DNA from: a virus
Virus record (IMG/VR): IMGVR_UViG_3300022592_000024
Span: 1-28,472 of that record
DNA length: 28,472 nt
Reading direction: 5' to 3' (one strand)
This document shows positions 17,648 through 28,472 of this stretch, piece after piece; the stretch's first letter is position 1; every line of letters starts with the position of its first letter. Made by a program: the position numbers and the translations under genes. Below the pieces are notes generated by a model that was not told where the DNA came from, did no database searches, and saw only the letters and a list, made by a program, of their open reading frames with translations.

Positions 17648-18022
17648 ATGCGAATTAATGAACTTTGCGAAAGCGTAGGCGCTGAATTAGATAAAGATAT
17701 TGAACATCAGGATAGACACGGTTTAGGGTTTAACCTTGCCGACGACTTGTTGTTTTTTATGCATCACGATGATGATGCATATCGTCGTCATACATATCCA
17801 GCTATTATGAAAGCATACGATTCTCATAAAGCTGAAAAACCTACAGATATGGCATTGTTTAGTGCGGCAGTTCACGAAGCATACGAAAAATATCGTACTA
17901 AATTCCAAGACATTCGTGAGCTTCCAGAAAGTTTAGATGACGACACAGTTCGTGAAATTTGTGAACACATGCACGAACACGAAACTCAAAAAATCCAAGA
18001 CGGTCATTACGGGGAATACTAG
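17648..18022 (+). CDS. small acidic/His-rich protein with capsid-targeting-like N-terminus
   Basis: 124 aa. It begins MRINELCESVG; Glu at position 5 followed by a hydrophobic pair, and L-C-E at 6-8 matches the [LI]-x-E cleavage rule of the T4 prohead protease. The body is helical, rich in His, Asp and Glu (HHDDDAYRRHTYP; CEHMHEHETQ near the end), which could bind metal. No known family. It is the first gene of the block whose proteins share this N-terminus, and its stop overlaps the next start (TAGTG). Confidence 0.5.
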   Translation: MRINELCESVGAELDKDIEHQDRHGLGFNLADDLLFFMHHDDDAYRRHTYPAIMKAYDSHKAEKPTDMALFSAAVHEAYEKYRTKFQDIRELPESLDDDTVREICEHMHEHETQKIQDGHYGEY

Positions 18023-19257
18023 TGTTACTCCGTGAATTGTTTCTTAAAGAAAATGCGACTGGTCCACATCCTACTACAGGTGTTAATCTAGGCCGAGCGT
18101 TTAATCACCCAGAACATTTTATTATATTCTACGGTCTGACTGGTATCAACGAAGCAATTCAACATTTAATAGATATAGTTGCAGAACCTAAACAATTAAG
18201 ATTTAAATGGGACGGTAATCCTCAGATCTATTGGGGGCGCGAAAAGAAGAACGGACCATTAGTACTAGCAGGACATAATGGATGGAGTAAAGGTGGCAGA
18301 GATACTGGCACTACAATAGACGATTTTACAAGTCCTAAAGCAATTGAAAACTTTATTGTTAATAAAAGTGGTAATCCAAAGACTCCCGAAGAAGTTGCAG
18401 AACGACAAAGATTTGCTAGCGAGTTTAGCGGATTGTATCATATATTTGATGCGGCTACACCAAAAGACTTTGTAGGGTTTGTTTATGCTGATGCATTATT
18501 CTTGCCTAACACTAAGCCAGCACCGGTCGACGGTGTGTATACTATGAGACCAAATCCGCATAGTAAAACAGAATATCATATAGACTCCAATGTTAAAAAA
18601 GAAGGTCCGTTAAAATTAGCATCACGTGTGCCGGGTGCTCAAGCTATGATAGTAGCACATGGAACATTTAAAACATTTGGTGCTCCAGATAATGAACAGA
18701 TTCCAGAAGATGACTTTAGCAAATTTAATAAGACTCCTGGGTTGATTGTTGTAAGTCCAATTTACAATGATACAAAACCTCAAGTCGACATGTCTGAAAT
18801 TGAAGAAGTAAAAAAGGTTGGTGGATATATTGACCAACATGGACAAAATATACAAAACTTTGTAACACATATACCGCCTGCGGACAGACAAGGATTCTTT
18901 TATAGATTTTTGAATATACATAATTCAGCTAACGATTTTGATAGTATTACTCCGCAAATGTTCTACGACTGGATGGCTAGCCCTAAAGATCCTAAAAATC
19001 TAGATAGCCCATCTATGGTAAGTTCTAACAAACAACTACATATTAAAAATACAGATTTAAAATTTAATGCGTTAGCACCAATGTTTCACTTGATGAAAAT
19101 TATGCGACGCACACGTCATGCTATTAACGATAGCATTAATAGTACACATAAACCAGAGTGTTGGGCAAGTAATCCAGAAGGATTTGTACGTTACGCAGGT
19201 CAAGGACATCAACACGGTCATATAAAACTTCAGAATGCAGGATGGAAAGATGAGTAA
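18022..19257 (+). CDS. putative ligase-like nucleotidyltransferase (KxDG protein), possible virion cargo
   Basis: 411 aa, GTG start overlapping the previous stop; GGGGAA lies just upstream. Residues 62-65 are KWDG inside LRFKWDGNPQIYWGR, the form of the nucleotidyl-lysine motif I (K-x-D-G) of ATP/NAD-dependent ligases and capping enzymes. DFVGFVYADALF (about 150-161) could be the following motif (G-x-x-x-x-D), and VDGVYTMRPN (about 169-178) may be a later strand. I associate it with a phage family of unknown activity; ligase chemistry is inferred from the motif. The N-terminus MLLRELFLKE looks like a capsid-targeting sequence with an L-x-E site (8-10). It overlaps the HxGH nucleotidyltransferase by 8 bases, so the two may act together. 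Confidence 0.5.
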   Translation: MLLRELFLKENATGPHPTTGVNLGRAFNHPEHFIIFYGLTGINEAIQHLIDIVAEPKQLRFKWDGNPQIYWGREKKNGPLVLAGHNGWSKGGRDTGTTIDDFTSPKAIENFIVNKSGNPKTPEEVAERQRFASEFSGLYHIFDAATPKDFVGFVYADALFLPNTKPAPVDGVYTMRPNPHSKTEYHIDSNVKKEGPLKLASRVPGAQAMIVAHGTFKTFGAPDNEQIPEDDFSKFNKTPGLIVVSPIYNDTKPQVDMSEIEEVKKVGGYIDQHGQNIQNFVTHIPPADRQGFFYRFLNIHNSANDFDSITPQMFYDWMASPKDPKNLDSPSMVSSNKQLHIKNTDLKFNALAPMFHLMKIMRRTRHAINDSINSTHKPECWASNPEGFVRYAGQGHQHGHIKLQNAGWKDE

Positions 19258-20821
19258 TAGCAAACACGTTACTTTTTGCTTTGGTAGATTAAACCCTCCA
19301 CACTACGGACACAGTGGATTAATTCAAGCTGTGAAAACTGACGCACAAAAACACGGCGGTGATTGGTTTATCTTTACAAGTAAGAGTCACGATAAGAAAC
19401 CTGATCCAAAAAATAAGAATCCAATAGCGTACTCAGAAAAAATACAATGGATCGATTTAATCAATCCCGGACTAGGTAAACATTTTGTTAGAGATTCTAG
19501 TATTGCTAAAACATTCTTAGAAGCCGCGGCTTATTTGTATAGTTTAGGTTACACTAGTGCGACCTTTGTAGCAGGAGATGAAGATATGCCTGCTATGAAA
19601 CCTGCGTTGGAACAATATAATCATCAACAAAGAGATGCTAAAGGTAATCCGCACAGACACGGATTTTATGCGTTTCATCCGTTTTTATTCCATGCAAACC
19701 CAAGAGTAACAAGTGCTACTAGTGCTAGAGCGGCCGCGATTGCAAACGATCCAGATGCATTTTTCTCAGCAACAAAAGTTCCAAAAGATTGGACTGTAAA
19801 TGGCAGAACGTTATTAGAAGCGACTCGCGCAGGACTTGTACCCGAGTTAGCAGAACCAGATGAGTCTATACCTGTACAGAAGAAGCCTGTGAAACAGTTA
19901 AATACAGTAGTACCCAAGGAAAAAGTTATGAAGAAAGGACCAGCACAAGAATTAGCTGAATCGATGCATAAGCATGGCATGGATGCATACGAACGCGACC
20001 ATCGTGCCGCAACTAGTAACATGGGCGTGGATCATAATTTCCGTAACCAGGAACGTAACGCTGGATTAGAACACGAAAGAAACAATATTGCTATTTCTAT
20101 TAACGGAAAAAAATGGAAAGTATTTCCAGGCAAAGGTCATGCTGACAGTCACGAAGAGTGGAAACATTTACAACACATGAAAGACTGGTGTGCTAAAAAG
20201 TCTGCGTCGACTGGTAAAAAATGGTCTGCACACTTAACTGGCGAGAATCCTACTGTGTCCGAAGGCAAAACACAAAAACAAGAAGCACCTAAGCCACGTA
20301 ACTTTGTTGCTAAGAACGCAATTCAAAGCGGTGCTGGCGCACATAAAGATAAAAAGAAAGCTATGAAGCAAGGCGATACAAAACACAAAGGCAAATTAGA
20401 ATTTGCCGAAGGTCGTTTGAGTGCTAGCCTAAATAGTATTTTTGAAGAAAGATTCGAAGTATTGTATGAAGCTGAAAAGATTCCAGACAGTCATGCTACT
20501 GCTACACCCGGAATGACTACTCATCCAAGTTTAGATAACAGCAGTCCGTATCACCCATGGCGTTTTGCGGCCAACTTCTTACCTGGTGCTAACGGTAAAG
20601 ATCCTTATGAACATCAACCGGAACGTGATGGCCCAAACGGACAGCACTTGGTCACTGTAGCATATACTTCTGAAGAAGATACCATGATTAAACAAGCAGA
20701 AAAAGCATTCGGTGCTGAAGCAAGACGAATTGCAATTTCTCCACCAGGAAGCACTGAACTACCCGATACATACAAAACTAGTCCAGTAGCAACTCCTAAA
20801 CGTAACAAGTACGGTGTATAA
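19250..20821 (+). CDS. HxGH nucleotidyltransferase (NMNAT/cytidylyltransferase superfamily) fused to virion-type modules
   Basis: 523 aa from the ATG at 19250, preferred over 19235 because GGAAAG precedes it. Residues 9-25 (FCFGRLNPPHYGHSGLI) hold the catalytic HYGH at 18-21, and SATSAR near residue 155 matches the ISxTxxR nucleotide motif. This fold transfers a nucleotide from NTP to a phosphate, for example in NAD synthesis. After about 190 residues come a basic linker, NFVAKNAIQSGAGAHKDKKK (near 350-370), which I have seen repeatedly in phage virion proteins, and a C-terminal domain (about 415-523) shared with the 21135 protein, including TSPVATPKRNKYGV. Substrate unknown. Confidence 0.7.
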   Translation: MSNSKHVTFCFGRLNPPHYGHSGLIQAVKTDAQKHGGDWFIFTSKSHDKKPDPKNKNPIAYSEKIQWIDLINPGLGKHFVRDSSIAKTFLEAAAYLYSLGYTSATFVAGDEDMPAMKPALEQYNHQQRDAKGNPHRHGFYAFHPFLFHANPRVTSATSARAAAIANDPDAFFSATKVPKDWTVNGRTLLEATRAGLVPELAEPDESIPVQKKPVKQLNTVVPKEKVMKKGPAQELAESMHKHGMDAYERDHRAATSNMGVDHNFRNQERNAGLEHERNNIAISINGKKWKVFPGKGHADSHEEWKHLQHMKDWCAKKSASTGKKWSAHLTGENPTVSEGKTQKQEAPKPRNFVAKNAIQSGAGAHKDKKKAMKQGDTKHKGKLEFAEGRLSASLNSIFEERFEVLYEAEKIPDSHATATPGMTTHPSLDNSSPYHPWRFAANFLPGANGKDPYEHQPERDGPNGQHLVTVAYTSEEDTMIKQAEKAFGAEARRIAISPPGSTELPDTYKTSPVATPKRNKYGV

Positions 20822-21138
20822 TGCGACAATATAGAGTTACTAGTCAAGATATAAATCAAGACAGTCCAGATGACTGTTTTCTCGATCCTAGTGACCCTAT
20901 ACACGAAATGAAAGCTATAGCACACTTAGGCGGACTGGGTGCAGATGCAAGACTACACAAATTACGTGTAGAACAAGGATCTAACATAAGTGTTACTGGA
21001 ACTGAAAAAGGTCGTATACAACGAGAAATGAATATCAAACCTGGAACGGACGAATGGTTTAAATTATGGTTTAGTTTACCTAAATTTATGGAAGGCGAAC
21101 GAGCTGTTGGCACAGGATTTAGAGGCGTAAGAAAATGA
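20821..21138 (+). CDS. small protein, function unknown
   Basis: 105 aa, starting on the last base of the nucleotidyltransferase gene (TAATG) and overlapping the next gene by ATGA. It contains DPSDPIHEMKAIAHLGGLGA and a basic segment GTEKGRIQREMN. No membrane segment and no signal. It lacks the M-x3-E start of its neighbours. The position in a tightly coupled set of probable virion genes suggests a related role, but the sequence does not show one. Confidence 0.5.
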   Translation: MRQYRVTSQDINQDSPDDCFLDPSDPIHEMKAIAHLGGLGADARLHKLRVEQGSNISVTGTEKGRIQREMNIKPGTDEWFKLWFSLPKFMEGERAVGTGFRGVRK

Positions 21139-21575
21139 GATTAAGGGAATTTTTTAATAAATTAAACGAAGGGTCGGATGGCATTAGTACTAGCGATTCG
21201 GACGTCGACGGTTCTGGAACTGCACAGGGCGGTAAAAAACGCTCTAAAGGTCGCGGTAAAATACACGACCATCACCAAGCCGCAATTCCTGGATTAACTA
21301 CTATTCCCGATTGGCCCGGTATGTACTATAACATGTATCGTTTAGGTGTGCATCTAGCTGGTAGTCCTGAAAATCCTAATGATAATGCTGGTCCTTTTAG
21401 AAACGAGATGACGTTTACTACATATACTGATATTGAAGAAGAAATGGTAAAACATAGCGCCAAAGAAATGGGTGTAAAATTAAATGTATTAAGCAGTAAG
21501 GACAGTATTGAAACAGCTGATACTAACACTACTAGCCCTGTAGCAACACCTAAGCGCAATAAGTACGGAATTTAA
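21135..21575 (+). CDS. probable internal virion protein with SPVA...NKYG domain
   Basis: 146 aa. N-terminus MRLREFFNKLNEG (capsid-targeting-like; L-N-E at 10-12 fits a prohead protease site). A Gly/Ser/Asp-rich and basic linker follows (about 14-45), then a domain starting at HDHHQAAIPGLTT and ending TSPVATPKRNKYGI. The same domain ends the nucleotidyltransferase upstream: 13 of the last 14 residues are identical, and PG-[ML]-TT and the TYT/AYT-x-x-E-E strand-helix also line up. This is a duplicated module that I associate with virion proteins of T4-like aquatic phages. Confidence 0.55.
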   Translation: MRLREFFNKLNEGSDGISTSDSDVDGSGTAQGGKKRSKGRGKIHDHHQAAIPGLTTIPDWPGMYYNMYRLGVHLAGSPENPNDNAGPFRNEMTFTTYTDIEEEMVKHSAKEMGVKLNVLSSKDSIETADTNTTSPVATPKRNKYGI

Positions 21576-26015: not shown

Positions 26016-26273
26016 ATGTCAGGTAGAAATTACGGCGCGGAAGAAAAAGCAAAACTAGAAAGACTAATCAACGAAGGCTCAACAGTATTACGTGAAATTG
26101 AAGATTTAAATGAAGGCTTAAAAGAAACTGTTAAGGCAGTTGCTGAAGAATTGAATATTAAATCAAGCGTTATTAATCGTGCTATTAAAATTGCCCATAA
26201 AGGTAATTGGACTGAATACAACGAAGACGTTGCAGAAATTGAAGCTATTTTAGATATTACTAAAAAAATCTAA
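26016..26273 (+). CDS. dsbA: DsbA-type dsDNA-binding late transcription factor
   Basis: 85 aa (T4 DsbA is 89). Start after AAGGAGATATTTT. The sequence is helical and charged: EEKAKLERLINEGSTVLREI, then LNEGLKETVKAVAEELNIKS and VINRAIKIAHKGNW, ending with an acidic helix. This matches my memory of the T4-type DsbA layout, a double-stranded DNA-binding protein that assists late promoters. The central part (KAVAEELNIKSSVINRAIK) could be a helix-turn-helix. It is driven by its own sigma70-like promoter and lies before gp43. Confidence 0.7.
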   Translation: MSGRNYGAEEKAKLERLINEGSTVLREIEDLNEGLKETVKAVAEELNIKSSVINRAIKIAHKGNWTEYNEDVAEIEAILDITKKI

Positions 26274-26295
26274 ATAAGTATATAGACTAAGGCAA

Positions 26296-26311
26296 GCGGG
26301 CCATAAACCGC
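26296..26311 (+). promoter_or_regulatory. first hairpin of a tandem pair before gp43
   Basis: GCGG (26296-26299), 8-nt loop GCCATAAA, CCGC (26308-26311). The loop differs from that of the following hairpin (GCCCAAAA) at only two of eight positions. Confidence 0.45.
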
Positions 26312-26322
26312 ACATAGGTGTT

Positions 26323-26340
26323 TGTCAGCCCAAAATGACA
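26323..26340 (+). promoter_or_regulatory. probable gp43 translational operator hairpin
   Basis: TGTCA (26323-26327), 8-nt loop GCCCAAAA, TGACA (26336-26340), directly before AGGAG (26345-26349) and the ATG at 26355. The T4 gene 43 operator, where gp43 represses its own translation, also has a 5-bp stem with an 8-nt loop (AAUAACUC) just before the ribosome site. The geometry agrees; the loop sequence differs. Confidence 0.55.
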
Positions 26341-26354
26341 TATTAGGAGAAACA

Positions 26355-28472
26355 ATGAGCTATGTTGATGCATGGTTTGACCGTAATGACGATGTCATTA
26401 AAGTAGTCGAACGCAACAAGAAAGGCGAAAGGGAATTTAGAGACATTCCTGTACGCCATACATTTTATTACGCAGATCAGCGTGGTAAATATCAATCAAT
26501 TTACGGTGATGCACTAGGCAAAATCGTAGTCAAGAGTACAAAAGAGCTACGCAAAGAACAAGCGATTCATAGTAATCAAAAGCTATTTGAATCAGACATC
26601 AATCCAATTTTTGCTTGTCTAAGTGAAAACTACTTAAACGCAGATGCTCCAAAATTAAATACGGCATTTTTCGATATTGAGGTAGACTTCGATCCAGAAC
26701 GTGGGTATGCATCGCCAGATGATGCATTTATGCCAATTACTGCTATCGCTGTTTACCTACAATGGTTAGAAACTATGGTATGTTTAGCTATTCCTCCCAA
26801 GGGTGTTAAGATGGAAGATGCTAAAGAAATGGTCAAAGACTTTCCTAACACATATCTGTTTGAAAAAGAAGCAGAGTTGTTGGACATGTTCTTAGACTTG
26901 ATAAAAGATGCAGATGTTATTAGTGGTTGGAACTCGGAAGGCTTCGATATTCCGTATACAACTAATCGTGTTACAAAAGTCTTAAGCAAAGAAGATACTA
27001 GACGTTTTTGTTTGTTCGATCAATTCCCTAAACGCAGAGAATATGAAAAGTTCGGTCGTGTTGCTACTACATACGACTTTGTCGGTCGTGTACACTTAGA
27101 CTATCTTGAACTGTATCGCAAGTACACTTACGAAGAACGTCATAGCTATCGTTTGGATGCTATTGCTGAATATGAATTAGGCAAGCGTAAAACACAGTAC
27201 GAAGGTACGTTGGATCAGTTATACAACAATGACTTTAAGACATTCGTTGAATATAACATTAATGACTGTAAGCTACTTGACGATTTAGATAAGAAGCTAA
27301 AGTTCTTAGATCTTGCCAACACACTGGCACATGAAAACACAGTATTACTACAAACTACAATGGGCGCGGTGGCTGTAACAGAGCAAGCTATTATTAACGA
27401 AGCACATCGCAGAGGTTTCCAAGTTCCCAATCGTCCTAAAATGGATGATAGAGAAAATACTGCGGCCGCAGGTGCGTATGTTGCTTATCCTAAAGAAGGC
27501 ATTCATGATTGGGTCGGTTCGTTAGATATTAACAGTCTGTATCCTAGTGCTATTAGAGCACTAAATATGGGTCCAGAAACAATTATTGGTCAGTTGCGTC
27601 AAACAATGACTGACGAGTATATCGAAAACAAGATGGCTAAAGGGTCTAGCTTTGCGGCCTCTTGGGAAGGTATATTTGGTTCATTAGAATACACAGCAGT
27701 AATGAATCAAGAAATTGGTACAGAAATTACTATCGACTGGGAGAACGGTGATAGCGATGTATTAAGTGCGGCCGAAGTCTACAAGTTAATTTTTGATAGC
27801 CACCAACCTTGGGTTATTAGTGCTAACGGTACAATCTTCACGTACGAAAAAGAAGGTATTATTCCTGGACTATTAAAGCGTTGGTATGCTGAACGTAAAG
27901 AGATGCAGGCCAAACTTAAAGATGCTATCAAAGCAGGTAACAAAGTCGAAGAAGAGTATTGGGACAAACGACAACTAGTTAAGAAGATTAACTTGAACAG
28001 TTTGTATGGCGCTATTTTGAATCCCGGCTGTCGCTTCTTTGATAAACGCATTGGCCAATCAACAACACTAACTGGTCGTCAAATTGCCAAACACATGGCT
28101 GGTAAGGTTAATGAAATTGTTGCCGGAGATTATAATCACGTAGGTAAAGCTATTATCTATGGTGATACTGACTCATGCTATTTCAGTGCTTACAAGACTC
28201 TACAGAAAGATATCGATGCAGGCAATATATCGTGGACTAAAGAAAACGTTATTTCCCTGTATGATAATATCGGCGACGAAGTTAATGCGACATTTCCACA
28301 GTTTATGTTAGACACATTCCACGTGCCAAAGACACGCGGTGAAGTTATCAAAGCAGGGCGTGAGATTGTCGGAAGTAAAAGTCTGTTTATTACTAAGAAG
28401 CGTTACGCTGTGTTGTATTACGACAAAGAAGGCAAACGTGCAGACGTAGATGGTAAGCCAGGTAAGATCAAG
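26355..28472 (+). CDS. 43: family B DNA polymerase (T4 gp43 type), 3' truncated by window end
   Basis: 706 codons are visible and the frame is open at the end; T4 gp43 is 898 aa. Exonuclease motifs: FFDIEVD (about 105-111) and GWNSEGFDIPY (about 191-201), and YNINDCKLLDD for the third. Polymerase motifs: SLDINSLYPSAIR (motif A, about 394-406), KKINLNSLYGAI (motif B, about 544-555), and IYGDTDSC (motif C, about 600-607). All catalytic Asp and the Lys/Tyr of motif B are present, so it should be an active replicase with 3'-5' proofreading. The thumb and clamp-binding tail lie beyond the window. Start after AGGAGAAACA; a hairpin operator precedes it. Confidence 0.96.
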   Translation, partial: MSYVDAWFDRNDDVIKVVERNKKGEREFRDIPVRHTFYYADQRGKYQSIYGDALGKIVVKSTKELRKEQAIHSNQKLFESDINPIFACLSENYLNADAPKLNTAFFDIEVDFDPERGYASPDDAFMPITAIAVYLQWLETMVCLAIPPKGVKMEDAKEMVKDFPNTYLFEKEAELLDMFLDLIKDADVISGWNSEGFDIPYTTNRVTKVLSKEDTRRFCLFDQFPKRREYEKFGRVATTYDFVGRVHLDYLELYRKYTYEERHSYRLDAIAEYELGKRKTQYEGTLDQLYNNDFKTFVEYNINDCKLLDDLDKKLKFLDLANTLAHENTVLLQTTMGAVAVTEQAIINEAHRRGFQVPNRPKMDDRENTAAAGAYVAYPKEGIHDWVGSLDINSLYPSAIRALNMGPETIIGQLRQTMTDEYIENKMAKGSSFAASWEGIFGSLEYTAVMNQEIGTEITIDWENGDSDVLSAAEVYKLIFDSHQPWVISANGTIFTYEKEGIIPGLLKRWYAERKEMQAKLKDAIKAGNKVEEEYWDKRQLVKKINLNSLYGAILNPGCRFFDKRIGQSTTLTGRQIAKHMAGKVNEIVAGDYNHVGKAIIYGDTDSCYFSAYKTLQKDIDAGNISWTKENVISLYDNIGDEVNATFPQFMLDTFHVPKTRGEVIKAGREIVGSKSLFITKKRYAVLYYDKEGKRADVDGKPGKIK

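Follow-up and report, generated by a model that had tools for sequence, protein, structure and literature searches.

The DNA polymerase of phage T4, gp43, is the textbook example of a polymerase that represses its own mRNA. Does the leader of a gp43-like gene in the 28,472-base virus record of an uncultured giant phage carry a comparable control element, and if so, what is the element made of? The record in its entirety is the stretch of DNA analysed here (the window). It ends inside polB, the gene of a family-B DNA polymerase (26355-28472, plus strand), which starts with the ATG at 26355 and continues beyond the window end; its product matches Pfam PF00136 (E 8e-31) and PF03104 (E 3e-19) and PHROG 262 (E 4e-159). 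The preceding gene (26016-26273, plus strand) encodes a DsbA-like phage transcriptional regulator, with matches to PF11126 (E 6e-5, slightly below the curated threshold) and PHROG 639 (E 2e-11).

A repeated unit before polB

An earlier note, made from the sequence of the window, had described two related hairpins upstream of the gp43 gene, the second of them placed and shaped like the T4 gp43 operator. Both are real and lie between 26296 and 26340: in hairpin 1, GCGG (26296-26299) pairs with CCGC (26308-26311) around the loop GCCATAAA (26300-26307), and in hairpin 2, TGTCA (26323-26327) pairs with TGACA (26336-26340) around the loop GCCCAAAA (26328-26335). The likeness of the second to the T4 operator holds when a T4-type leader is used as control: a 5-bp stem and an 8-nt loop adjoin the ribosome site, the stem ending 14 nt upstream of the ATG. 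The stem of the first has 4 bp. The two hairpins are also related as described, being copies of one repeated unit that is conserved with covariation. The hairpin itself, taken by the note as the unit, exists but is only part of it; a GGY triplet before each stem (26291-26293 and 26317-26319), conserved as strongly as the loop, had been overlooked.

When elements 1 and 2 are aligned, the unit reads as a GGY triplet, a spacer of 1-4 nt and a 4-6-bp stem whose two strands flank the loop GCCNNAAA, which has 8 nt and in some copies 9; two copies of the unit fill the polB leader. Element 1 (26291-26311, plus strand), the upstream unit and 5' copy of the tandem, begins 17 nt past the stop of the preceding gene and consists of S1a GGC (26291-26293), a linker AA (26294-26295), S2a GCGG (26296-26299), S1b GCC (26300-26302), an A-rich loop ATAAA (26303-26307) and S2b CCGC (26308-26311). 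Element 2 (26317-26340, plus strand), the ribosome-proximal unit, has the typical geometry (L1=3, S2=5, L3=5): S1a GGT (26317-26319), a linker GTT (26320-26322), S2a TGTCA (26323-26327), S1b GCC (26328-26330), an A-rich loop CAAAA (26331-26335) and S2b TGACA (26336-26340). The Shine-Dalgarno sequence of polB, AGGAG (26345-26349, plus strand), starts 4 nt past the end of element 2.

Minimum-free-energy folding of the window stretch alone gives an ordinary energy (z -0.7), so energy by itself lends the element no support; support comes from comparison with relatives. The earlier note had pointed to covariation in the gp43 leaders of relatives as the comparison to make, and to unconserved stems or loops in close relatives as the outcome that would speak against its reading. 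Conservation is found, and the stems covary well above controls, with a paired-column covariation score of 0.361 vs 0.122 in shuffled alignments and at most 0.101 when the columns are slid by 1-3. The stem sequence is nearly free while pairing is kept (29 distinct pairs in element 1, 18 in element 2). Every pair of the element 1 stem changes on both sides among relatives, and the two inner stem pairs of element 2 interchange CG, UA, AU and GC; about a quarter of element 1 copies carry a one-base stem bulge. A descriptor scan of the window and the best 80 polB loci returns 166 matches on the plus strand and 3 on the minus strand, and this strand control together with the covariation rules out chance hairpins.

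Two further features of the window concern its other ORFs. Those at 19235-20821 and 21135-21575 share a C-terminal tail, TSPVATPKRNKYG[V/I] (20758-20821 and 21512-21575), which recurs at ORF ends in L286, L185, L215, L241, L252, L260, L269, L099 and L103 and looks like a C-terminal tag that virion or head proteins share. The ORFs at 17648, 18022, 21135, 21577, 22922 and 23463 have mutually similar N-termini (such as MRLREFFNKL, MRAKEFLLEF, LLRELFLKEN, MDFKKLLSQL), which to us are reminiscent of the capsid-targeting leader of T4 internal proteins.

Probable pairing of GGY with the loop

The GGY triplet is complementary to the loop triplet GCC. In the collection of at least 544 elements with a GCC loop, the upstream triplet is GGY in 544/544, either GGT (495) or GGC (49). 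Among polB leaders with a GCT loop at the place of the element, six distinct ones have AGT as the triplet and L355 has AGC, and the mixed combinations GGY/GCT and AGY/GCC are absent from the matches listed. One leader, L185, departs from the rule, its GGT facing a loop TCC with two of the three pairs kept. On the 216-row polB tree, the AG/GCT form lies at three separate places, i.e., in L112, in L396 and in a marine group with L351, L355, L476, L479 and L480. The outer pair of S1 thus goes from G-C to A-U, a change on both sides, at three places of the tree; the middle pair is invariant, and the third shows changes on a single side. When 50 elements were aligned without gaps, 150/150 S1 cells were paired, compared with 97% in shuffles, and five sequences had both-sided changes where 0.5 were expected; the outer pair is the only free test, since the alignment admitted only elements with G at position 2, a pyrimidine at 3 and GC[CT] in the loop. 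A sign test over independent pairs gives p 0.25 with only 3 pairs, too few to reach significance.

Complementary triplets that change together support an H-type pseudoknot over a plain hairpin, and each element probably folds in this way, with GGY:GCC as S1. As predicted from the sequences, S1 would have 3 bp and S2 4-6 bp, with 0 nt between the stems and an A-rich third loop of 5 nt; pairing of GGY with GCC would leave only NNAAA of the loop free. A plain hairpin whose loop is read by a protein is less likely, because GGY changes together with the loop. An S1 longer by one pair, joining the base before GG to the base after GCC, was dropped as its pairing is inconsistent. Five leaders (L070, L315, L254/L223/L250, L541) also contain a hairpin with a GCT loop about 59 nt before the ATG; it is distinct from the element, which these leaders have separately. 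A DNA scan for GCT loops returned mostly noise, plus two further contigs of the L355 type, AGC:GCT.

Occurrence, spacing and inserted genes

The 80 nearest polB loci of IMG/VR all have the element pair (80/80), 78 directly before polB, among them L040, whose element 1 contains masked bases, and 2 at a displaced position (L076, L078). Seeding with more distant polymerases extends the set to at least 348 distinct leaders, in the counts of which near relatives weigh heavily; the element is found in at least 311 distinct polB leaders, with two copies in 239/311, and these leaders come from uncultured phages of freshwater and the sea. When IMG/VR was scanned twice with DNA patterns that made no use of polB, the scans led back to the same gene: among the matches listed, tandems precede polB wherever the contig continues, insertions aside. 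A covariance model of the tandem matches strongly once per contig in 13 large contigs (86-282 kb), each time at the polB leader, and weakly in the two remaining large contigs, which belong to a single-element clade; no strong element was found by the model elsewhere in the large contigs. Weak extra matches (E 3e-4, L606; E 0.04) look like chance. The element is linked exclusively to the polB transcription unit.

The element is absent around about a dozen leaders of the clade, within 0.4-1.5 kb of upstream sequence, and from five cultured relatives whose polB is similar: Pseudomonas phage PA5oct, Sinorhizobium phage Phosso, Escherichia phage 121Q, Klebsiella phage RCIP0023 and Cronobacter phage GAP32. 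A blastn search of 50,697 phage records with the consensus tandem gave no match, and the Rfam covariance models gave no relevant match to the window and 5 relatives at permissive thresholds.

Across leaders, the distance from the end of the last stem to the ATG is 9-21 nt, mostly 11-15, a spacing that we take to fall inside the 30S footprint, and in nearly all of them an SD-like motif starts 0-4 nt past this stem. A marine clade of 48 rows, with support 99, has one element only, its stem abutting the Shine-Dalgarno sequence; two copies are thus not always needed. Copy number switches between two and one a single time on the polB tree, with the copy state of L355, L185 and L040 assigned by hand for this count. 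In single-element leaders such as L391, L383, L357 and L520, another hairpin replaces the upstream copy, either GCTC-ACTTTAA-GAGC or CGCC...GGCATG, the latter variable in its inner part. A clade polB with a single-element leader is also encoded by L590 (PBPT01000016.1, 335 kb), which is filed as a Neomarinimicrobiota MAG and is probably a jumbo-phage genome misplaced in it; its placement possibly hints at the host.

Three unrelated, co-oriented genes have been inserted between the element and polB, encoding a 2OG-Fe(II) oxygenase-like protein (200-207 aa), a PHROG 7084-like protein (233-240 aa) and a Cys-rich protein (57-63 aa), and in each case the element stays at the operon head. In the ten cases read, the stop codon of the inserted gene either touches the polB start or shares bases with it (for example ATGA or TAATG), which is what translational control relayed by coupling would predict. 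Leaders with an inserted gene include L493, L350, L586, L547, L538, L100 and L122, and coupled two-gene operons have formed recurrently at this one spot before polB. A different insertion is seen in L076, L078 and L292, where a gene on the opposite strand with an endonuclease-like DUF723 match (L078:2229-2972 and L076:204-947, minus strand) lies between an intact element pair and polB. The element is about 800 nt from polB in these three, and the separation of operator from gene suggests that control has probably been lost. Upstream promoter motifs (TAARTA, TATAAT) are present in some leaders and are not conclusive; a promoter-like TATAAT, a weak signal, starts 11-12 nt before the first GG in 18/240 tandem leaders.

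A putative operator and its known counterparts

The position at the operon head, the spacing to the Shine-Dalgarno sequence and the coupled insertions fit a translational operator of the polB transcription unit. From sequence comparison and the T4 precedent, the two tandem H-type pseudoknots are probably such an operator, under autogenous control with the polymerase as binder. The choice of the polymerase as ligand follows the analogy with T4 gp43; repression, and cooperativity between the copies, we likewise infer. Free polymerase, not engaged at the fork, would bind the A-rich pseudoknots, with the A-rich loop as the likely contact, in the way of the loop A and C bases in T4, RB69 and RB49. 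The ribosome-proximal copy would hold the polymerase complex against the Shine-Dalgarno sequence, the upstream copy would add affinity or cooperativity, and the bound complex would block 30S binding. Accumulating template DNA would then titrate the polymerase off the leader, and synthesis would resume; with an intervening gene, the block would reach polB through translational coupling.

The same operator might be read by another RNA-binding protein of phage or host (an SSB, a RegA-like protein, a host factor). Nothing in the sequence names the binder, and T4 gp32 binds a leader pseudoknot (PMC535899), so that the structure suits an SSB and a polymerase alike, yet a general regulator should have several targets and the large contigs have one strong site, at polB; this reading is unlikely, if still to be reckoned with. 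Lower stands a structural leader without a dedicated ligand, which would protect the mRNA 5' end, fix a low translation rate or act as a thermosensor: stable stems beside a Shine-Dalgarno sequence can tune translation by themselves, and the TATAAT motifs hint, weakly, that the mRNA may start close to the elements, whereas neither protection nor tuning would need near-invariant GGY, GCC and AA, or a restriction to polB, while the stems drift. We regard it as improbable.

A tandem small-molecule riboswitch resembling the preQ1 or SAM-II type, perhaps with a nucleotide as ligand, is more doubtful again. Known riboswitches offer examples of the size, topology, A-rich third loop, Shine-Dalgarno placement and tandem arrangement of the element, but the few conserved unpaired positions, mainly AA, offer little for a selective pocket, and the element is tied to a single gene, not to a metabolic set, and matches no Rfam family. 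Hardly credible is a signal at the level of DNA, with the inverted repeats as a recombination site, a homing-endonuclease target, an origin or a protein-binding site. Although the DUF723 endonuclease-like gene was inserted directly behind the element in L076, L078 and L292, the compensatory changes (29 distinct pairs in element 1) keep the pairing and not the sequence, which largely refutes this reading; the features are also strand-asymmetric, with GGY at the 5' side and AAA at the 3' side of the loop, and the distance to the sense-strand Shine-Dalgarno sequence is near-fixed.

With the translational operator of polB as the favoured reading, it is on balance likely that a tandem pseudoknot operator is widespread in uncultured giant phages, that it puts the polB operon under the control of the replicative DNA polymerase itself, or of a nucleotide ligand, and that the operator stays at the operon head when genes enter. 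The clade supplies hundreds of natural variants of one operator in which fixed and free positions are plain; it also offers a transition from tandem to single copy, seen once on the tree, and insertions in the operon that are natural tests of coupling, and the covariance model describes an RNA family missing from Rfam.

The preQ1 and SAM-II riboswitches are small H-type pseudoknots with an A-rich third loop close to the Shine-Dalgarno sequence. The element shares their topology, this loop and this proximity; unlike them, it has no Rfam match, no link to a metabolic gene and fewer conserved unpaired nucleotides. The operator of E. coli rpsO (ribosomal protein S15) is a pseudoknot of a self-regulating nucleic-acid-binding protein (PMC3014915), though a cellular one, and is likened here by description. 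Closer in setting is gene 32 (SSB) of T4, T2 and RB69, likewise a phage replication gene whose leader has an H-type pseudoknot, there for autogenous translational control. The gene 32 pseudoknot lies 67 nt upstream of the start and is followed by UUAAA repeats where gp32 spreads (PMC3014915, PMC535899); here, by contrast, the gene is polB, and the element sits directly at the Shine-Dalgarno sequence without UUAAA or UAAA repeats.

T4 gp43 and gp32 repress their own translation via a leader hairpin or pseudoknot (PMC3014915, PMC535899). When not replicating, gp43 binds its leader at a hairpin and at sequence that overlaps the ribosome site; for gene 43 there is no evidence of a pseudoknot, and up to the 2010 review no gp43-RNA complex had a solved structure (PMC3014915). 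The Tequatrovirus gp43 leader, our T4-type control, reads AGCCT-AATAACTC-GGGCT, a 5-bp stem with an 8-nt loop that ends 18 nt before the ATG; its geometry and position match those of element 2, while its sequence does not. The likeness to the T4 and RB69 operator thus lies in the family-B polymerase leader and in the 5-bp stem and 8-nt loop of element 2 near the ribosome site. Operator loops have -UAAC- in T4 and RB69 and -UAAA- in RB49 (PMC3014915). The 3' half of the loop is A-rich here as well, with AAA, and UAAA in element 1; in contrast to T4 and RB69, the loop GCCNNAAA has no UAAC, and element 2 also lacks UAAA. By analogy, the element would work like the gp43 operator; the likeness claimed is one of action, not of common origin. 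The predicted GGY:GCC pseudoknot, the two tandem copies (one in the marine clade) and the free stem sequence set it apart from the T4 and RB69 operator, and the different sequence, the predicted pseudoknot and the tandem copies would be what is new in this polymerase leader.
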